DNA of 64,000 nucleotides from Pseudoxanthomonas sp. JBR18 (lineage in GTDB: Bacteria; Pseudomonadota; Gammaproteobacteria; Xanthomonadales; Xanthomonadaceae): assembly GCF_028198165.1 (NCBI RefSeq), contig NZ_CP116339.1, forward strand, positions 3,727,001 through 3,791,000. Direction: 5' to 3'. Below, in pieces: positions 542 through 27,584 of the stretch. Each line of letters opens with the position of its first letter. The stretch's first letter is position 1. The notes under the pieces are model-generated. The model did no database searches and was not told where the DNA came from. It was given only the letters and a program-made list of their open reading frames with translations. A program made the translations under genes and the position numbers.

Positions 542-1327
542 TTAGACGTTGTTGTTGAGGTAACCGAGCATCGAGTCGGTGGTGGAGATGGCCTTGGCGT
601 TCATTTCGTAGGCGCGCTGGGTCTCGATCATGCTGACCAGCTCCTCGACCACGTTGACGTTGCTGCCTTCCAGGGCGCCCTGCACGGTGGTGCCCAGGCC
701 GTTGAGGCCCGGAGCGCCGTTCTGGGCCGGGCCCGAGGCGGTGGTTTCGGCGTAGAGGTTCTCGCCCTTGGCCTGCAGGCCGGCGGGATTGATGAAGTCG
801 GTCAGGGTCAGCGAGCCCACTTCCAGGGCCTGGGCCGAATCGGCCATCTGCACGGTGATCGTGCCGTCGTTGCCGATGGTCAGCGACTGGGCGCCTTCGG
901 GGATCTGGATGCCTGGCTGCACCGGATAGCCGGAGTTGGTGACCAGTTCGCCCTGCGAGTTGATCTGGAAGCTGCCGTCGCGGGTGTAGGCCGAGCTGCC
1001 GTCGGGCATCAGGACCTCGAAGAAGCCGCGGCCATTGACCATCACGTCCAGGGCGCGGCCGGTCTGCTGCTGGTTGCCCTGTTCGAAATCCTTGGAGGTG
1101 GACACCACGCGCACACCGGTGCCCAGCTGCAGGCCCGAGGGGAGCTGGGTCTGGGCCGAGGTCGAACCGCCGGGCTGGCGCACCTGCTGGTACAGCAGAT
1201 CCTCGAAGCTGGCGCGGTCGCGCTTGAAGCCGGTGGTGCTGGTGTTGGCCAGGTTGTTGGAGACGACCGACATGCGCGTCTGCTGCGCATCCAGTCCGGT
1301 CTTGGCGACCCACAAAGCCTGATTCAT
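542..1327 (-). CDS. flgG: Flagellar distal rod protein FlgG
   Basis: FlgG (261 aa) builds the distal rod of the flagellar axle. The N-terminus [16 protein letters not shown] and the [13 protein letters not shown] motif near residue 30 are the flagellar rod/hook signature. The C-terminal [13 protein letters not shown] segment is the FlgG-type coiled-coil end. The reading frame continues 15 codons upstream to 1372, but the conserved N-terminus and the family length (about 260 aa) fix the start at 1327. The 103-bp gap to flgF is large for this cluster and holds a sigma-54-type promoter, so flgG and flgH may form a separate transcription unit. Confidence 0.97.
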
Positions 1328-1381
1328 GACCCGATTCCTCTCAGTGATGGCCCCGCGTCTGGCGCCGGGCAATGAACCTGA

Positions 1382-1397
1382 TGCACGCGCCGTGCCA
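1382..1397 (-). promoter_or_regulatory. Candidate sigma-54 promoter for flgG-flgH
   Basis: The minus strand reads TGGCACG-GCGC-GTGCA, one mismatch (G for T) from the TGGCACG-N4-TTGCW sigma-54 consensus, with the right distance between the -24 GG and the -12 GC. Transcription would start near 1371, about 44 bp before the flgG start codon. It occupies the only sizeable gap inside flgFGH. The mismatch at the -12 element lowers certainty. Confidence 0.6.
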
Positions 1398-1430
1398 GAA
1401 CAGGCGACGGCTTTCCGGCGGGCCGCGGCC

Positions 1431-2186
1431 TTAGCCGCTCAGGCGCAGCAGGGTGTTGGCGGACTGCGCGTTGTCATCGCCATGCTTGATGACCTTGACC
1501 TGCATCTCGAACTGGCGCTGCAGCTGGATCATCTGCACCAGGGCGCCGGCGGCGTCGACGTTGCTGCCTTCCAGCACGCCGCTGTTGAGGGTCTTGCCCG
1601 GCGCCTGGGCGAAGGCCTGGGCCGGATCGGTGCTGACATTGCGCATCAGTCCGTCCAGGCCGCGGGTCAGGCGCTCGGGCGTGGCTTCCACGACCTTCAT
1701 CTGGCCCACGATGGTCATCGTGGCCGGGCCTTCGCCCTGCGGGATGATCGAGATCGTGCCGTCGTTGCCGATTTCCAGCGACTGGTGCGGCGGGATCGTC
1801 ATCGGATTGCCGTCCTGGTCCAGGACCGCGCGGCCGCTGGCGGTGACCAGTTGCCCGTTGGGCGTCAGGGCCAGCTCGCCGCCGCGGGTGTAGGCCTCGC
1901 TGCCGTCGGCCGACTGCACGGCCAGCCAGCGGTTGTCCAGGAACGAGACATCCAGCGGGTTGCCGGTGACCTGCTGGGAACCGACGTCGCGGTCGAAGCC
2001 CTGGTCCACATGCAGCGCATCGATGCGCGAGGGGTAGCCCGCACCGGGGATCTTGTAGGCCTCGGTGTTGGCCAGGGCCGCCTTGAAGCCGGCGGTGTCC
2101 ACGTTGGCCAGGTTGTGCGAGACGGTGGCCTGCGCCTGCAGGGAGGCGCGGGCGCCGGTCATCGCGACATAAAGTGCCTTGTCCAT
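1431..2186 (-). CDS. flgF: Flagellar proximal rod protein FlgF
   Basis: FlgF (251 aa) is a proximal rod subunit of the flagellar basal body. It begins [19 protein letters not shown] and carries the rod/hook motif [13 protein letters not shown] at about residues 24-36. The central FlgE/F/G-like domain contains the family's [21 protein letters not shown] loop. The C-terminus [16 protein letters not shown] matches the conserved tail of this family. It lies between flgE and flgG in the usual order. The sequence shows no defect. Confidence 0.97.
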
Positions 2187-2224
2187 GCGCTGCTCCGGAT
2201 CGGATCAGCCGCCCAGGGCCATCA

Positions 2225-3448
2225 TCAACGGATGTTGATGATGGTCTGGGTGACCTGGTCCTGGGTGGAAATCATCTGCGAATTGGCCTGGAAGTTGCGC
2301 TGGGCCACGATCATGTTGACCAGCTGTTCGGTCAGGTCCACGGTTGAGGACTCCAGGGCCCCGGACTGGATGTCGCCGAAGTCCGAGGTGCCCGGGGCAC
2401 CGGAACGCGCGCCGCCCGAGGTGGAGCTCTCGGCCCAGATGTTGTCGCCCAGCGAGCTCAGGCCCTGCGGATTGACGAAGTTGGTGATCGCCACCTGGCC
2501 CAGCGCCTTGTCGGCGTTGTTGGAGTAGCGCGCGTAGACCACGCCGTCTGCGTCGATGCTGATCGAGTTGAGCTTGCCGCTGGCAAAGCCGTCCTGGCGC
2601 GCATCGCGCAGGGCGAAGGCCTCGCCGTACTGGGTCGAACCGGTGATGTCCAACGTCATGTTCAAGGTGCCGGCGCCGGTGCTGGGCGTGAACGTGCCCA
2701 GGGCGATGCGCCCATCGGCCGGGGTCACCAGCGCGCCGCTGTCGGAGAACTGCAGCGTGGACGCGGCGCCCACCGCGGTGCCGTCGACATAGTTGTAGAC
2801 CTGCCATTCGTTCGGATTGGCGGTCTTGACGAAGTACGAGGTCTGGGTATGGGTCACGCCCAGCGAGTCGTAGACGGTGATGCCGCCGGTGGAGTGGTTG
2901 TAACTGTTGGCATCGGTCGGATCGAACGGGGTCACGCTCGGCCCGGAGGCGTTGCCGGGCAGGGTGACCATCAGGTTGGCGATGCTGGTCTGCTGCGGGG
3001 CGCTGTCGGTGGTGAGCAGCTGCAGGTCGGTCAGCGAGCCGACCGCGAACCCAGTGCCGTTGGCATTGGGTGGATACACCTGCAGGCGCGCACCCTGCGG
3101 ATTGACCACATAGCCGTTGGCATCGGTCTGGAAATTACCGGCGCGCGAATAGACCTTGGCGCCGTTGACCGTCAGGGTGAAGAACCCTTCGCCGGAGATG
3201 GCCAGGTCCAGGTTGCGTCCGGTCGGATCGACGTTGCCCTGCGAGAACTGCTGGGCCACGTTGCTCACCCGCACGCCCGAGCCCACCGCGTTGCGCGCCA
3301 GGCCGTAGCCGGTGGAGGAGAACAGGTCGGCGAACTCGGCGCGCGACTCCTTGAAGCCGGTCGTGTTCACGTTGGCGATGTTGTTGGCGGTGACATTCAG
3401 GTCGGTGTTGGCCGCCTTGATGCCGGACAGCGAAGTGTTGAAACCCAT
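2225..3448 (-). CDS. flgE: Flagellar hook protein FlgE
   Basis: FlgE (407 aa) polymerises into the flagellar hook outside the outer membrane. The N-terminus MGFNTSLSGIKAANTDLNV and the motif ANNIANVNTTGFKESRAEF are diagnostic of hook proteins. A long, more variable central domain holds the hook-specific FlgE D2 region, and the C-terminus NMIVAQRNFQANSQMI closes the coiled-coil core. The length is typical for a gammaproteobacterial hook protein. It is followed by flgF 38 bp downstream and preceded by the hook-cap gene flgD, consistent with co-transcription from the flgB promoter. Confidence 0.98.
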   Translation of the reverse strand: MGFNTSLSGIKAANTDLNVTANNIANVNTTGFKESRAEFADLFSSTGYGLARNAVGSGVRVSNVAQQFSQGNVDPTGRNLDLAISGEGFFTLTVNGAKVYSRAGNFQTDANGYVVNPQGARLQVYPPNANGTGFAVGSLTDLQLLTTDSAPQQTSIANLMVTLPGNASGPSVTPFDPTDANSYNHSTGGITVYDSLGVTHTQTSYFVKTANPNEWQVYNYVDGTAVGAASTLQFSDSGALVTPADGRIALGTFTPSTGAGTLNMTLDITGSTQYGEAFALRDARQDGFASGKLNSISIDADGVVYARYSNNADKALGQVAITNFVNPQGLSSLGDNIWAESSTSGGARSGAPGTSDFGDIQSGALESSTVDLTEQLVNMIVAQRNFQANSQMISTQDQVTQTIINIR

Positions 3449-3475
3449 GATGGACTCCTGTGTGGTTGTCCGGCG

Positions 3476-4153
3476 TCAGCTGACGCGGAGCACGTTGGCG
3501 AGCGGGGCGGTGCCCAGCCCGGTCAGATCGAGATAAATGCCGTCCGAGCCGACCGTCGCGCTTTCGACGGTCGCCTTGACGTAGGTGGACAGATCCGTGT
3601 CGGTCCCGCTGCTGTCGGTATAGGTGGCCGAGATGGAGTACTTGCCTGATGCCAGCCGCGTGCCATAGGCATCGGTGCCGTCCCAGTCGAAGGCCACCTC
3701 GCCGGCATCGCTGGCCTTGGCGGTGATCTGCTTGACCGCATTGCCGTTCGCGTCGGTGATGGTGAAGTTGACCGTGCCGGCGCCGGGCGCGGCGACCACG
3801 CCGGTGGCATGGCCGCCATCGGCCAGGGCCAGGTTGGGGGAGGGCACCAGCACCGAATGCCCGACCAGGGTCGAGGCACGCAGGATCTGGTCGGCCCCCA
3901 GCGAGCTGGAAAGGCCGGTGACGGTGGTGTTGAGGTCGCCGATGCCCTGCACGGTGGACAGCTGGGCCATCTGCGAGACCATCTGGCTGTTGTCCATCGG
4001 CTTGAGCGGGTCCTGGTGCTGGAGCTGCTCGGTCATCAGCTTGAGGAAGTCGGCCTGGCTGAGGGTGTCCGACTTGCTGGTCGACTTGCTGCTGCTGTTG
4101 GATGCGCCGGTCAGTCCCAGGCTGGAATAGACGTCGTTGGAAACGGTGCTCAT
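3476..4153 (-). CDS. flgD: Flagellar hook assembly scaffold FlgD
   Basis: FlgD (225 aa) is the hook cap under which FlgE subunits polymerise; it is lost from the finished flagellum. The conserved N-terminal segment FLKLMTEQLQHQDPLKPMD (about residues 36-54) is the FlgD hallmark. A Tudor/FnIII-like C-terminal domain follows, with the FLGD Ig-like motif FDWDGTDAYGTRLASGKY. The serine/lysine-rich first 30 residues are low complexity, as usual for this export signal region. It lies between flgC and flgE, in the expected order. Confidence 0.97.
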   Translation of the reverse strand: MSTVSNDVYSSLGLTGASNSSSKSTSKSDTLSQADFLKLMTEQLQHQDPLKPMDNSQMVSQMAQLSTVQGIGDLNTTVTGLSSSLGADQILRASTLVGHSVLVPSPNLALADGGHATGVVAAPGAGTVNFTITDANGNAVKQITAKASDAGEVAFDWDGTDAYGTRLASGKYSISATYTDSSGTDTDLSTYVKATVESATVGSDGIYLDLTGLGTAPLANVLRVS

Positions 4154-4192
4154 GGGAAGGTCCTAGGACGGATGTGCGGGAAACGGGCGCGG

Positions 4193-4600
4193 CTAGCGGC
4201 CCATCGTGAGCGTGGCAAGGGCAAGCTCCTTGGCGGTGTTGAGCACCTCGACGCCGGCCTGGTAATTGCGCGAGGCCGAGATGAGGTTGACCATCTGCGA
4301 GACCGGATCGACGTCGGGCTGGTAGACGTAGCCGTCGGCATCGGCCAGCGGGTGGCCCGGCTCGTAGCGTTTGATCGGCGGGTCCTTGCTCTGGGAAATT
4401 TCCTTGACGTTGACCCCGGTCAGGCTCTTGTCCTGGGAATTGGTCACCGCCTGGAAGATCGGTTCGATCGGCTTGTAGGCGGCCTCGGCCGAGCCGGCCA
4501 CCGAATCGGCGTTGGCCAGGTTGGAGGCAATGGTGCTCATGCGCACCGACTGGGCCTGCAGGGCGGAGCCGGCGACATCGAAGATGGGCAGGTTGCTCAT
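4193..4600 (-). CDS. flgC: Flagellar proximal rod protein FlgC
   Basis: FlgC (135 aa) is a proximal rod protein of the basal body. The sequence starts MSNLPIFDVAGSALQAQ, contains the rod motif ASNLANADSVAGS near residue 25, and ends with the conserved MVNLISASRNYQAGVEVLN tail. Length and order (flgB-flgC-flgD) agree with the family. It starts only 3 bp after the flgB stop codon, so translation is probably coupled to flgB. Confidence 0.97.
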   Translation of the reverse strand: MSNLPIFDVAGSALQAQSVRMSTIASNLANADSVAGSAEAAYKPIEPIFQAVTNSQDKSLTGVNVKEISQSKDPPIKRYEPGHPLADADGYVYQPDVDPVSQMVNLISASRNYQAGVEVLNTAKELALATLTMGR

Positions 4601-22865: not shown

Positions 22866-23084
22866 TTATTTCATGCGGTAGGTGATGCGGCCCTTGGTCA
22901 GGTCGTAGGGCGTCATTTCGACCTTCACCCGGTCACCGGTCAGGATGCGAATGTAGTTCTTGCGCATGCGGCCGGAGATATGGGCGATGATCTCGTGGCC
23001 GTTTTCCAGGCGCACGCGGAACATGGTGTTGGGCAGCGTCTCGGTGACGGCGCCTTCGAATTCGATTGAATCGTCTTTCGACAT
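22866..23084 (-). CDS. infA: Translation initiation factor IF-1
   Basis: IF-1 (72 aa) occupies the ribosomal A site during initiation. The sequence is a full-length S1/OB-fold protein of exactly the canonical length, with [19 protein letters not shown] at the start, [17 protein letters not shown] in the middle and [18 protein letters not shown] at the end. It is monocistronic: an intrinsic terminator follows it, and a sigma-70 promoter precedes it. It normally neighbours aat in this family; here a foreign insert lies between, starting only 7 bp upstream of the -35 box. Confidence 0.98.
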
Positions 23085-23134: not shown

Positions 23135-23163
23135 ATTATAACCTGAAGCTGGTGTCACCGCAA
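23135..23163 (-). promoter_or_regulatory. Sigma-70 promoter of infA
   Basis: On the minus strand TTGCGG (23163-23158), a 17-nt spacer and a perfect TATAAT (23140-23135). The predicted start near 23128 gives a leader of about 44 nt. The duplicated aat end begins at 23171, so the insertion left this promoter intact. Confidence 0.82.
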
Positions 23164-23170
23164 AAAATGC

Positions 23171-23519
23171 GTTAAGCCACGCACAGTGTGGCGGCTGGCA
23201 GATGACCCACCGGCGTGGTCCAGGGGCCGATCCGGCCCTCCTGCTTCACCAAGCCTGCAATCTTGCGCAGGAAGCGGTCTCGTGGCATCGGCTCGGCGCC
23301 CATGCGGGTCAGGTGATCGTTGGCGACCTGGGCGTCGATCAGCGGCCAGCCCCAGCCCCGCAGCACGTGGGACAGGCCTGCGAGGGCGGCTTTCGAACCT
23401 CCCGAGCATGCCGAGAACATGCTCTCCCCGAAAAACATGCGACCGATCGCCACGCCGTAGATGCCGCCGACGAGCGTGCCGGTGTCATCCCAGAACTCCA
23501 GCGAATGCGCGTGTCCGAG
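23171..23519. repeat. Direct repeat copy 1 (aat 3' end), 349 bp
   Basis: This segment aligns without gaps to 25701-26049, with 14 mismatches by eye (about 96 % identity). It begins one base beyond the aat stop codon and ends inside the gene. Both edges on the insert side are sharp. The two copies frame the 2181-bp foreign segment. Confidence 0.93.
23172..23519 (-). pseudogene. aat 3'-end fragment (duplicate, lacks the 5' half)
   Basis: The last 116 codons of leucyl/phenylalanyl-tRNA--protein transferase, including EFWDDTGTLVGGIYGVAIG and the end PAATLCVA, are present without a start or the N-terminal half. Most of its differences from the intact gene at 25702-26448 are silent or conservative. 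It is joined at 23519/23520 to the C-terminal part of a broken lysR gene. It cannot make a working enzyme. Its location next to infA is the native place of an aat 3' end, so it marks the left edge of an integration event. Confidence 0.92.
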
Positions 23520-23996
23520 ACCATGTCCTGCGGAATCGTCTCCATCAGGCGCACGCCTGCATCGAACCCCTATTCCACGACATCGACGAGACGTCCTTCC
23601 GAAACCAGATCGAGCTCGACGTCGGGATAGCGATCCAGGAACGGAGGCACGACGTGTCTCGGGAGGATACGGGCACCGCTCTTGTTGGCATTGATCCGCA
23701 GCGTGCCGGTCGGCATGCCGCGCTCCTCAGAAAGGGTATCGAGCGCCTGATCGAGATCCTGAAGAACCGGGTGGAACCGGGTGGAACCGAGCGAGCATCC
23801 GGGCGCCAGCCTGGGTCAGTGACACGCGGCGTGTCGTCCGGTCGAAAAGCCGGATGCCCAGTTTGCCCTCGAGTCCGATGATCGTGTGGCTGAGCGCGGA
23901 GCGCGAGACCCCCATGACGTCTGCCGCCCTGCGAAAGCTGAGGTGACTGGCCACTGCCGTGAAGGCGGCCAGGTCATTCAGGCTGGGACGCACCAT
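23520..23996 (-). pseudogene. LysR-family regulator, broken three times
   Basis: The N-terminal winged helix is intact (LNDLAAFTAVASHLSFRRAA, then MGVSRSALSHTIIGLEGKLG). After about 75 residues a 10-bp tandem duplication (23765-23784) shifts the frame. Removing one unit restores a normal LysR linker and effector domain, reading through TLRINANKSGARILPRHVV. A TAG at 23570-23572 then interrupts that restored frame before GFDAGVRLMETIPQDMV. The gene finally ends at the junction with the aat fragment and lacks most of its effector domain. It is divergent from the lipocalin and SDR genes, the usual place for their regulator. It is non-functional as sequenced. Confidence 0.9.
23765..23784. repeat. 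10-bp tandem duplication that frameshifts lysR
   Basis: Two adjacent copies of AACCGGGTGG, followed by the partial third unit AACCG. Removing one copy restores the LysR reading frame, which shows the duplication is the causal lesion or a sequencing artefact. Confidence 0.85.
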
Positions 23997-24212
23997 TCGT
24001 GATTATTCCTCACCACCTCATCCCATATTGAAGATCTTATAACACCAACCCCCGTGATTTACATTCGCAGACTTGCAAACGGGTAATCGCCTGAAGAAAA
24101 CATGGTTCATCACCGGCAGGCACTCGAGGCGCAGTGGGAAGTCGCCCATTCCACCGACCGCCAGGCTCCGTGAAGTCGCCGCAACCTAGACACCAGGAAC
24201 AGAGGAAAAAAC
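23997..24212. promoter_or_regulatory. AT-richer divergent control region between lysR and the lipocalin gene
   Basis: About 216 bp without a gene. It contains the palindrome AAGATCTT (24031-24038) embedded in ATTG-N-ATCTTATAAC, plausible as a LysR-type T-N11-A site, and several AT-rich -10-like strings (CATATT, TATAAC). The ribosome-binding site GAGGAA lies just before the lipocalin ATG. The regulatory role is inferred from layout only. Confidence 0.4.
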
Positions 24213-24710
24213 ATGTCTATTCGTCCCGTCATGCTGGCGCTCGCCCTCGGCACCTTGTCCTCATTCGCCTTCGCACAGACCAGCGCTGAAAATCAGGTAC
24301 TGGGCACATGGAAAATGGTATCGGCGACGATTGACCCTGCCGGAAAGAATATTACCGCCTATGGAGAAAAGCCCAACAGTCTCCTCGTCTTTACGCCCGA
24401 TATGCACTTCGTGGAGGTACTTACCGACGCCGACACGCCTCGTTTTGCGTCCAATGCGCGCGGTGAGGGGACGGATAAAGAGAACCGTATGGCGATGTCA
24501 CGCAGTATCGGATTCTTCGGCACCTATACTGTCGACAGCAATGGAGAATTTAGCGGAAACCGTGTCTTGGGTTCGACATTCCCAAATTGGGTGGGCAGCG
24601 TGCGGACCCGTGACGATCTGACGCTTACTGTTGATGGTGACCGCATGTCCGAGAGATTTCGGCGGCCCGAGGGCACCGAGATCCAGATCGAATGGCGACG
24701 CGTCAAATAA
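24213..24710 (+). CDS. Secreted lipocalin-like domain protein
   Basis: A protein of 165 aa with a clear signal peptide (MSIRPVMLALALGTLSSFAFA, cleavage after about residue 21). The mature part opens ENQVLGTWKMVSATID, the GxW start of lipocalin-like beta barrels, and continues with a barrel-like pattern ending IQIEWRRVK. Proteins of this family are often encoded beside SDR oxidoreductases under LysR control, as here; the ligand is unknown. It has a good GAGGAA ribosome-binding site. Codon use is less GC-biased than in flanking genes, consistent with transfer. Confidence 0.75.
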   Translation: MSIRPVMLALALGTLSSFAFAQTSAENQVLGTWKMVSATIDPAGKNITAYGEKPNSLLVFTPDMHFVEVLTDADTPRFASNARGEGTDKENRMAMSRSIGFFGTYTVDSNGEFSGNRVLGSTFPNWVGSVRTRDDLTLTVDGDRMSERFRRPEGTEIQIEWRRVK

Positions 24711-24766
24711 GGTGAGAGGCCGCAGGACTGCGGACGGCAAGGCCCCCTTCATCGAGTTGAACAATC

Positions 24767-25492
24767 ATGCAGCACATCCAGAAGCCTTTGGCAAAGGTCA
24801 TCCTCATCACAGGCGCTGGACGCGGCATCGGCGCTGCGCTCGCTGTCGCGGCTGCGTCCGAGGGGCACTATGTCGCTGTAAATTATCGCTCTCAGAGCGC
24901 CGAAGTCGATCAGTTGGTGTCTTGCTTGAATGACGGCATCGGTATTCGGGCGGATGTCAGCATCGCCGAGGATGCTCAGCGGCTTATTAATGAAACGCTC
25001 GCGCACTTCGGTCGCATCGACTGCGTGATCAACAACGCGGGCATCGGCGAAGTATGCCCGATCGACCGTCTCGATCTCGCGCATTTCCAGAAGACGCTTC
25101 ATGCAAACTTGACGAGCGCTTTTCTTGTCTCGCAAGCGGCATGGCCTCACATGACGCGAGACGGTGGCCGGCTTATCTTCATGTCGTCCGCCGCCGCCCG
25201 CACCGGCGGGGGACTTTCAGCCGCCTATGCCGCTTCGAAAGGCGGCGTCGAGAGCCTGATGCATGCCTATGCCACTGCACTGCGCCAGCACCGCATTACC
25301 GCCAACGCCATAGCCCCCGCGTTGATCGAAAGCAGAATGGCCAAAGCGATTGCTTCAGGTCCCACCGAAAACCTTCCACTAGGGCGTTTGGGTCGCCCTG
25401 AAGAACTCTGGCCGGCGACACGGATGATCATCGAGACCGAATATCTAACAGGCCAAACCATTCATGTCGATGCCGGCAGATTCATGACCTGA
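24767..25492 (+). CDS. Short-chain dehydrogenase/reductase (SDR) in the insert
   Basis: Classical SDR of 241 aa. The cofactor motif TGAGRGIG is at residues 15-22, NNAG near 90, the catalytic serine in MSSAAARTGG, and YAASKGG gives the YxxxK pair. The C-terminal GQTIHVDAGRFM corresponds to the usual TGQxxxVDGG end. Substrate cannot be assigned. It lies 56 bp after the lipocalin gene and is followed by the truncated flavin reductase, so a redox operon regulated by the divergent lysR was probably captured in part. The gene itself looks intact. Confidence 0.85.
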   Translation: MQHIQKPLAKVILITGAGRGIGAALAVAAASEGHYVAVNYRSQSAEVDQLVSCLNDGIGIRADVSIAEDAQRLINETLAHFGRIDCVINNAGIGEVCPIDRLDLAHFQKTLHANLTSAFLVSQAAWPHMTRDGGRLIFMSSAAARTGGGLSAAYAASKGGVESLMHAYATALRQHRITANAIAPALIESRMAKAIASGPTENLPLGRLGRPEELWPATRMIIETEYLTGQTIHVDAGRFMT

Positions 25493-25558
25493 ATGCGTGG
25501 CGAACGGGCCGCCAGCGATCCAAAAAAGATAAATCACATTGATCCAGGAAGACCGGTT

Positions 25559-25705
25559 ATGTATGCGCATCACTTCTATGAGTCAAGCAAAGGGCATGGC
25601 CTTCAACATGACCCCTTGAATTCGATCGTCGCGCCACGCCCGATTGGCTGGATCAGCACCCTAAGCGAGGACGGGAAAGCGAACCTGGCTCCATACGGCT
25701 GTTAA
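25559..25705 (+). pseudogene. Truncated flavin reductase-like gene
   Basis: The first 47 codons encode the start of a flavin reductase-like FMN-binding protein (FYESSKGHGLQHDPLN, then VAPRPIGWISTLSEDG and NLAPYG). An intact member has about 200 residues and continues NLAPYSFFN. Here the frame runs into the aat duplicate at 25701 and ends at once with a TAA created by the junction. The ATG at 25559 is preceded by AGGAAG. It is a remnant. Confidence 0.85.
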
Positions 25706-26049
25706 GCCACGCACAGTGTGGCGGCTGGCAGATGACCCACCGACGTGGTCCAGGGGCCGATCCGGCCCTCCTGCTTCACCAAGTCTGCGATCTTGCGCAG
25801 GAAGCGGTCTCGTTGCATCGGCTCGGCGCCCATGCGGGTCAGGTGATCGTTGGCGACCTGGGCGTCGATCAGCGGCCAGCCCCAGCCCCGCAGCACGTGG
25901 GACAGGCCTGCGAGGGCGGCTTTCGAGCCTCCTGAGCATGCCGAGAACATGCTCTCGCCAAAAAACATGCGGCCGATGGCGATGCCGTAGATGCCGCCGA
26001 CGAGCGTGCCGCTGTCATCCCAGACCTCCAGCGAATGCGCGTGTCCGAG
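25701..26049. repeat. Direct repeat copy 2 (aat 3' end), 349 bp
   Basis: This is the copy joined to the intact 5' half of aat. It matches 23171-23519 without gaps. The mismatches are unevenly spread: more than half lie in the last 120 bp on the 5' side of the gene. At both copies the repeat starts with GTTAAGCCAC just outside or at the stop codon. Confidence 0.93.
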
Positions 26050-26448
26050 TCGGTGCAGCTGTCCGTAGGCGTGCGCCATGTCCGCGGTGATCCATGTGCC
26101 GTCCTGGCCGGGACGCGGCGCGGTGGCGCAGGCCTGGAGCACTTGGTCGAACGCGGTATCGGCACGTAGGACCCAGGCACTGCCGCGCAGCTGGCGGCGG
26201 AATCGGGAGGACAGGAGAACGCGGCCGGTGGAAAAGACGGTGCGCGGGTCCGGGGACCACCACAACGGCGGCTGGCCGTCCGAGAACCAGGGAAAGATGC
26301 CAGCTCGATAGGCGTTGAGCAGGCGCGGTGGTGACAGGTCACCGCCCACGGCCAGCAGGCCGTCGGGTTCCGTGAGCGCCAGGGAGGGGTCGGGAAAGGG
26401 GGCGTCCTGCGCGGGGCCGAGCAGGAAGGGCAGGGATCGGGGCGCCAT
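25702..26448 (-). CDS. aat: Leucyl/phenylalanyl-tRNA--protein transferase
   Basis: Aat adds Leu or Phe to proteins with N-terminal Arg or Lys, creating N-degrons for ClpS/ClpAP, whose genes lie nearby. The 248-aa protein has the family motifs GLLAVGGDLSPPRLLNAYR, GIFPWFSDGQP, WWSPDPR, and GGIYGIAIGRMFFGESMFS. The start MAPRSLPFLLG (26448) agrees with family length; the frame runs on upstream into the acyltransferase gene. It begins 8 bp after that gene ends. Its 3' half is one of two repeats flanking the foreign insert; the insert removed its usual neighbour infA. Confidence 0.96.
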   Translation of the reverse strand: MAPRSLPFLLGPAQDAPFPDPSLALTEPDGLLAVGGDLSPPRLLNAYRAGIFPWFSDGQPPLWWSPDPRTVFSTGRVLLSSRFRRQLRGSAWVLRADTAFDQVLQACATAPRPGQDGTWITADMAHAYGQLHRLGHAHSLEVWDDSGTLVGGIYGIAIGRMFFGESMFSACSGGSKAALAGLSHVLRGWGWPLIDAQVANDHLTRMGAEPMQRDRFLRKIADLVKQEGRIGPWTTSVGHLPAATLCVA

Positions 26449-26456
26449 GGGGCCGG

Positions 26457-27584
26457 TCACGCCAGCGGCGAGCGGAACGGGGAGCGTTGTGCGAGGATCA
26501 GCGCGTGCTCGCGCACCGAGGCGTCCTCCTCGGCGCACCAGCGCGCAAGCGCCTCGCGAAAAGCCTCATCGCCGATCCAGTGGCGGCTGCGCACGAAGCT
26601 CGGCAAGAAGCCCCGCGCGATCTTGTGCACGCCCTGGGCCCCGGGTTCGAAGTGGGTCAGACCCTCGCGCAGGCAGTAGTCGATCCCCTGGTAGTAGCAG
26701 GTCTCGAAGTGCAGCCCGGCCAGGCTGGCGTCCGCGCCCCAGTAGCGGCCATAGAGGCTGTTCCCACCGCGCAGGCAGAGGGCGCCGGCAACCGGGCGCC
26801 CTTCGTACTCGGCCAGAAAGATCACCAGCGCACGCGGCATGCGCAGGGCCAGGGCCTGCAGGAATTCCAGGGTCAGCGCAGGCGAATTGCCGTACTCGTG
26901 GAAGGTCTGCAGGTAGAAGCCATACATCGCCTCCAGGTCGTCATCGCTGGCCTCGTCGCCGTGGACCACCCGGAAGCGCACGCCGGCGCGCGCCACCTTG
27001 GCCCGTTCCTGGCGGATGTTCTTGCGATGCTTGTGGTCCATTGCGGCCAGGAAGTCATCGAAGGTCCGCCAGCCGGCCGTATTGCGCCACTGGTACTGCA
27101 CGTCGGTACGCGCCAGCCACTCGGCGCCGAACGCGGCGTCCTCGGCCTCGTTATAGAAGTTCACGTGCGCCGAGGACAGTCCGTGGCGCCCGACATGCGC
27201 CTGCATGGCCAGCAGCAGCGCCTGGCGCAGCGTTGGGGTGGGTGCGAGCAGGCGCGGGCCGGTCACTGGCGAATAGGGCACCGCGCACAGCCACTTGGGG
27301 AAGTAGTCCTGGCCATAGCGCGCATAGGCATGGGCCCAGGCATGGTCGAACACGAACTCGCCATGCGAGTTGGTCTTGAGATAGCCCGGTGCGGCGGCCA
27401 CCAGCCGATCGCCTTCCCACAGGGTCAGGTGCTGCGGTGTCCATCCCCAATCAGTCCGCAGGCACCCGGTCTGTTCCAGGCCTGACAGGAAAGCGTGGTG
27501 GAGGAAGGGGTTGCTGCCGTCGTGCAGCGCATCCCACTGTGTCGCTTCAAGCCCGTCCAGCGCCCGGATCCAGCGTGCTTCCAT
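26457..27584 (-). CDS. FemAB-like N-acyltransferase (PF04339-type)
   Basis: A protein of 375 aa of the family described as peptidoglycan biosynthesis/recognition, a double GNAT-fold FemAB relative. Visible family segments are NPFLHHAFLSGLEQ near the start, ARYGQDYFPKWLCAVPYSPV, HRKNIRQERAKV, and the C-terminal YYQGIDYCLREGLTHFEPG with GVHKIARGFLP. No signal peptide or membrane helix. The exact substrate is unknown. The ATG at 27584 shares one base with the stop of the upstream DUF2254 gene; a TTG one codon earlier is also possible. The gene lies 8 bp before aat, so they are probably co-transcribed. Confidence 0.85.
   Translation of the reverse strand: MEARWIRALDGLEATQWDALHDGSNPFLHHAFLSGLEQTGCLRTDWGWTPQHLTLWEGDRLVAAAPGYLKTNSHGEFVFDHAWAHAYARYGQDYFPKWLCAVPYSPVTGPRLLAPTPTLRQALLLAMQAHVGRHGLSSAHVNFYNEAEDAAFGAEWLARTDVQYQWRNTAGWRTFDDFLAAMDHKHRKNIRQERAKVARAGVRFRVVHGDEASDDDLEAMYGFYLQTFHEYGNSPALTLEFLQALALRMPRALVIFLAEYEGRPVAGALCLRGGNSLYGRYWGADASLAGLHFETCYYQGIDYCLREGLTHFEPGAQGVHKIARGFLPSFVRSRHWIGDEAFREALARWCAEEDASVREHALILAQRSPFRSPLA

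Follow-up and report, generated by a model that had tools for sequence, protein, structure and literature searches.

Prophage e14 in icd leaves a whole gene at one side of the integrated DNA and a 3' fragment at the other, and genomic islands at gene 3' ends share this geometry. The same arrangement is present in Pseudoxanthomonas sp. JBR18 at aat, the gene for leucyl/phenylalanyl-tRNA–protein transferase, where 2181 bp of foreign DNA separate the complete gene from a detached copy of its own 3' end. The window analysed here is the whole 64,000-nucleotide stretch from 3727001 to 3791000 of the 4.60-Mb single-contig genome, and positions are given within it. In contrast to e14 and the gene-3'-end islands, the aat locus lacks an integrase and a conserved core, and no relatives of it were found; its repeat is long and imperfect, and its cargo is of an ordinary metabolic type.

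Gene-end duplications around foreign DNA are also described where no recombinase is involved. In Escherichia coli given linearised plasmids with a lacZ end (pJA2), 56 of 60 selected clones yielded a PCR product diagnostic of lacZ-end duplication, and 14 sequenced clones had 109-950 bp of the lacZ end duplicated, according to the parts of the report drawn on here (PMC3240628). Its authors inferred partial degradation, re-circularisation and a single crossover (PMC3240628). The 349-bp duplication at aat resembles these products. Unlike them, it is natural and decayed, its aat end seemingly comes from a sister lineage, and the circle is one that we infer; moreover, the selected E. coli clones were Lac-minus, whereas aat is whole here (PMC3240628). 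Transformation of Streptococcus pneumoniae likewise duplicated a chromosomal segment in tandem on entry of a cassette, although the copies in the portion of that report considered here span kilobases to hundreds of kilobases and involve an essential gene under selection (PMC3784515). The aat locus is most likely a natural instance of an event type already known and not a new mobile element, and its insert is strain-specific among the genomes compared.

Structure of the aat locus and its relatives

The two repeat copies (23171-23519 and 25701-26049) are 349 bp each, lie in the same direction, align without gaps and differ at 14 positions (96% DNA identity), exactly as a preliminary description made from the sequence alone had stated. 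The second copy, on the minus strand, is the 3' end of the complete aat gene (25702..26538, minus strand; Pfam PF03588, 2.6e-65), and its edge falls one base past the stop codon (25702-25704). The first copy, also on the minus strand, is the detached aat 3' end and adjoins infA. Among the window's direct-repeat families of 40 bp or more, this one is by far the longest, the runner-up measuring 93 nt at 63-71% identity; a duplicate structure of this kind is far beyond chance. Direct copies of a homologous segment frame the insert; aat is whole again on one side, and its former 3' end lies beyond the insert on the other.

The insert between the copies (23520..25700, strand not applicable) is recognised as foreign by its sequence matches in other genomes and in plasmids. 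Its G+C content is 0.581, against 0.668 and 0.676 in the flanking 10 kb on either side. Both outer genes, lysR and a flavin reductase, are cut at the junctions, so the earlier picture of lower-GC DNA with truncated outer genes is confirmed.

Comparison with relatives supports a recent origin at this place. From 138 fetched loci, 124 distinct aat sequences were kept, of which 121 hold infA; the named loci are the best 80 of 555 encoding a relative and belong mostly to Xanthomonadaceae genera. Among the matches listed, the nearest named aat proteins are from Pseudoxanthomonas (72-75%). The gap between aat and infA is at most 130 bp in 111 of the 121 loci (median 86), and none of the 124 distinct loci has a second aat piece within the DNA fetched around it. 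Gene order is fem-aat-infA-clpA-clpS in 69 of the 80 named loci; in the other 11 at least one of the five genes was not found, and those found keep their order. Because relatives have a short gap and lack a second aat piece, the insert reads as new at this place and recent on the scale of the relatives compared. The preliminary description had named this junction as a place to look, and the single-copy state was indeed found; the opposite outcome that it had envisaged, the same insert in all relatives without a second aat end, was not, as the insert was absent from this place in them. The detached copy lies 87 bp from infA, much as in relatives, and so the fragment keeps the native infA side.

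Ten loci have wider gaps, nine of 144-359 bp and one of 1977 bp with other genes. The latter (L105, about 2344-4320) belongs to a distant proteobacterial metagenome bin and contains reading frames of 226 and 318 aa; the junction therefore takes insertions in other lineages too.

A proposed single crossover and a possible in-place duplication

A plain homologous crossover explains this geometry without any element-encoded enzyme. The reading that we favour, with a probability of about 0.5, is that a circle closed by illegitimate joining, which carried a sister-lineage aat end, integrated by one homologous crossover. In the incoming fragment, an aat 3' end from a closely related strain would have been fused, one base beyond the stop codon, with a small cluster of foreign oxidoreductase genes. 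Illegitimate joining of its two ends would have created the lysR/aat joint at 23519-23520 and closed the circle, which would then have entered chromosomal aat by one RecA-type crossover within the 349 bp common to both. This would yield, in order, a complete hybrid aat, the insert and a detached aat 3' end still followed by the native infA promoter and infA; the foreign genes would have decayed after entry. At the lysR joint (23519/23520), where the sequences are loosely similar, the nearest lysR homologue and aat have a single exact base in common, consistent with end joining. The genome encodes Ku, which could close such a circle, and ComEC.

An integrating circle that bore its own aat end predicts that the mismatches between the copies are allelic. 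The closest known aat protein, P0001, is a JGI sequence from a 12.8-kb contig, probably metagenomic, and was compared as protein only; it is 95% identical over 252 residues (27-278). Each copy differs from P0001 at 3 of 115 residues (112 the same), and the copies differ from each other at 6 (109 the same). At positions 176, 186 and 242, P0001 has the residue of the detached copy, and at 172, 252 and 266 that of the complete copy. Judged by relatives, the detached copy is odd at codons 172, 189, 194 and 204, and the complete copy at codons 186 (first base; third base weakly), 193 and 242, the last being a derived proline-to-glutamine change. Relatives do not fix the polarity at codons 176, 187, 202, 250, 252 and 266; these counts are approximate, as the 137 loci used include some genomes twice and one codon-misaligned row (L003). 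Third codon positions hold 8 of the 14 differences (one-sided P 0.058). Since both copies carry derived changes and each is closer by protein to P0001, the mismatches look allelic, and the P0001 comparison favours old alleles over a recent duplication in place.

The same data bear on an in-place duplication, in which foreign DNA was captured at a break or at a stalled fork within aat, the 349 bp were copied by staggered fill-in with end joining or by a template switch that restarted 349 bp upstream, and the mismatches arose later. Ku would serve this route as well, and an insert whose halves best match different groups, and which may therefore be a mosaic, would suit it. A recent duplication would put most changes in the dead copy, whereas the complete, selected copy has roughly 4-5 derived changes against 6 in the dead one; further, the copies agree against P0001 at 0 of 115 residues. 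Both of these counts are small. We consider an in-place duplication rather unlikely, although it is the alternative to be taken most seriously.

Several observations weigh against the single crossover. At the DNA level the copies are 96% alike and at most 79% like any relative compared, which is what a duplication in place would also give. The preliminary description had argued that the mismatches speak against a simple recent duplication, and that copies nearer to each other than to any other aat would point to an internal one; on this test the answer is split, as by protein each copy is nearer to P0001 than to the other (112 against 109 of 115), and by DNA the copies are nearer to each other. 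The case for alleles is built on six residues in comparison with a single protein, P0001. If the duplication followed the split from P0001, the probability that all three complete-copy changes came after it is, by our estimate, up to about 0.125 under a clock, and simple decay could account for the three residues found only in the detached copy. The differences are also clustered, with 10 of 14 inside 100 bp (P 0.017 under a uniform model, 0.040 when weighted by site variability; longest gap between differences, P 0.050 and 0.082, respectively), so gene conversion or later allele exchange between copies or strains may be mixed in. At the flavin reductase joint (25700/25701), homologues are too diverged to gauge shared bases. 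No donor strain, circle or intermediate was found, and the search of plasmid and phage records proves little in this respect.

Site-specific and one-sided alternatives

The preliminary description had proposed a Campbell-type integration, by analogy with e14, of a circle with its own aat end. Its outline is probably right: the repeat structure, the foreign insert, the native infA side and the allelic-looking mismatches all agree with such a circle. The site-specific version is probably wrong. As had been noted before, no recombinase remains; none was found in the insert by the open reading frame (ORF) list, by Pfam or by PHROGs searches of its four readable genes. Two of the four insert proteins matched PHROGs, one to a FabG-like reductase and one (the LysR piece) to a family of unknown function, and neither is an integrase. 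A dyad at the stop codon, GCCAC-N7-GTGGC, had been put forward as the crossover core. It is present, but it occurs in 0 of 26 genus relatives (28 genus loci were fetched; L003 and L028 were left out), and a crossover there would leave the other ~330 bp of duplicated aat unexplained.

A relic of a tyrosine-recombinase island that targeted the aat 3' end and supplied a replacement end, with the integrase and most cargo lost later, would account for the whole gene on one side and the 3' fragment on the other, as in e14. Islands at the 3' end of trmE are documented in the part of the source used here (PMC8409611). Searches for other traces of such an island point the other way. The preliminary description had suggested looking for islands that end in an aat 3' fragment; a search of 394 other family genomes for detached pieces of the aat 3' end found none at an E-value of 1e-8, a threshold at which tails of att-core size would be missed. 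In viral contigs, eight pattern stretches resembled aat and none was confirmed, with a single-protein query that finds close relatives only; the junction sequences had no match there, exact matches only being sought. None of the best 8 of 331 papers listed in a literature search on genomic islands and attachment sites names aat; in another such search, the slash in the enzyme name may have defeated the spelling used. A site-specific, e14-like element is thus unlikely, given that no recombinase, no viral or phage relative and, at this threshold, no aat-end piece in the 394 genomes was found, and that the dyad is not conserved.

Two further candidates were rejected. A prophage or phage island has no match in phage records, and the PHROGs families of the insert are not integrases. 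A transposon insertion is contradicted by the lack of a transposase among the insert genes and by a duplication of 349 bp, which is not short; exact inverted matches within 40 bp of the insert ends reach 5 nt at most, and the longest does not lie at the tips.

Second aat matches occur in 6 of 395 family genomes, the present one included, and 13 of 395 have no match at all. Those in the five other genomes were ruled out as tails, with 41-55% identity, frames of at least 257 aa and positions on other contigs; on these grounds they read as paralogues or mixed assemblies. Plasmid records gave four weak aat matches (72-83%).

A one-sided event has also been weighed. In homology-facilitated illegitimate recombination of linear DNA during transformation, incoming aat would pair with the chromosome and the foreign end would join the sister chromosome 349 bp upstream. 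The presence of ComEC is consistent with uptake of DNA, though ComEC alone is not proof of competence. In pneumococcus clone R3022, a 3276-bp duplication without flanking repeats came with an added cassette, by a mechanism that its authors call unclear in the portion of the report considered here (PMC3784515). In the E. coli conjugation test, by contrast, the one-sided illegitimate type made up 4 of 60 clones and was accompanied by deletions (PMC3240628), and at aat this route requires an unequal joint with the sister chromosome. We therefore prefer the re-circularised single crossover over an in-place duplication, a lost site-specific element, which is improbable, and a one-sided illegitimate event, which is the least probable of the four.

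Strain-specific genes without a recombinase often go unexplained, and where a gene end is duplicated with allelic mismatches, the duplication can be read as the scar of a homologous capture of foreign DNA. Such scars are searchable genome-wide. A displaced gene 3' end alone is not proof of a site-specific island. It is doubtful that the locus reflects a general route in the genus, whereby foreign DNA first settles next to a housekeeping gene of a sister strain and then spreads between strains through homologous pickup of the gene end; if it did, this route would leave allele-marked gene-end duplications that record the donor and the crossover.

Contents and setting of the insert

The insert is a small, decaying cluster of foreign metabolic-type genes. 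At its left end lies the N-terminal part of a lysR regulator gene (23520..23996, minus strand; PF00126, 4.5e-21; aligned to L174 and L191), which ends at the aat junction. Alignment places a 10-bp tandem duplication near 23764-23789 that is absent from G721 and G810, two genomes of another gammaproteobacterial genus. Next comes the remnant of a first short-chain dehydrogenase/reductase (SDR) gene (24091..24173, plus strand), which, compared with the intact copies in the same two genomes, has lost ~750 bp, apparently in two steps, and does not keep its start codon. A lipocalin-like protein of 165 aa is intact (24213..24710, plus strand; PF13924, 3.1e-14), with 96% DNA identity to G810 and 89% aa identity to a Salinicola sp. 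protein. A second SDR oxidoreductase of 241 aa is also intact (24767..25492, plus strand; PF13561), with 80% DNA identity to a Rhizobium plasmid and 90% aa identity to a protein named from Shinella sumterensis. The cluster closes with an N-terminal fragment of a flavin reductase (25559..25700, plus strand; tblastn, 76% aa to an Agrobacterium plasmid), which is cut after 48 codons by the right joint, where two homologues (L192 and L193) read LAPYSFFN; a Pfam search of these 48 residues gave no match.

The two halves of the insert best match different groups. The left 1191 bp match G810 at 92% and 96% and G721 at 89% and 92% DNA identity, and 4 of the 18 genomes from the genus of these two match the insert, in its left half only. 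This genus is probably Salinicola, as the closest named lipocalin outside the own genome is from Salinicola sp. For the second SDR, the nearest named sequences are rhizobial. Three Rhizobium plasmids compared show 74-83% DNA identity in the lysR-SDR-lipocalin part, and 50 plasmid records match in all. No single contiguous donor of the whole insert was found among 297 family genomes (16 with partial matches, own included) or 398 phylum genomes (6 with matches, own included), and the whole insert in the window's gene order was found neither in the 18 genomes of the G721 genus nor in plasmid records. Rhizobium sp. CC-CFT758 contains both halves, ~5 kb apart and in a different arrangement. The lysR-SDR-lipocalin cluster of the Rhizobium plasmids and of the G721/G810 genus has the same genes and orientation as the insert; unlike that cluster, the insert has lysR cut and the middle SDR almost wholly deleted, and it adds the second SDR and the flavin reductase piece.

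The own genome holds no second copy of the insert, with partial matches of 68-82% only, among them a second lysR-containing stretch at C1:1892788-1893279 (L112, L113; 68-71% similar). Related lysR and lipocalin pieces also occur in G035 and G103. At 90%, the cluster of the second SDR represents 68 sequences, that of the lipocalin 7 and that of the P0001 aat 5; this SDR may therefore occur much more widely than its host does.

On the other side of the detached copy lies infA, encoding IF-1 (22866..23084, minus strand; PF01176, 4e-29). Its predicted promoter, TTGCGG-17-TATAAT (23135..23163, minus strand), is intact and lies on the infA side of the repeat, 8 bp past its edge. It was assigned by eye and by a two-way pattern: similar sequences are seen by eye upstream of infA in genus relatives, and a promoter-like pattern of the same type occurs in 64 of the 121 relatives' loci. 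A consensus promoter scan did not report it, and a literature search returned nothing on an aat-infA promoter. With the foreign DNA just past the aat stop codon and the spare aat end on the infA side, probably neither gene was harmed; as aat remains complete and infA retains its promoter, the insertion could be tolerated under selection.

At 23167-23184, where the detached aat piece ends, a stem accompanied by a T run resembles a terminator; the scanned stretch has three such sites against 2.6 expected by chance. At the other end of aat, the listed start (26457-26538) falls inside the upstream FemAB-like gene, and P0001 begins 26 residues later, which suggests that the listed start is too early and that the true one may lie near residue 27. 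Elsewhere in the window, at 587-3392, three-copy repeats of 65-93 nt with 63-74% identity lie in register like a row of similar genes, perhaps flagellar.

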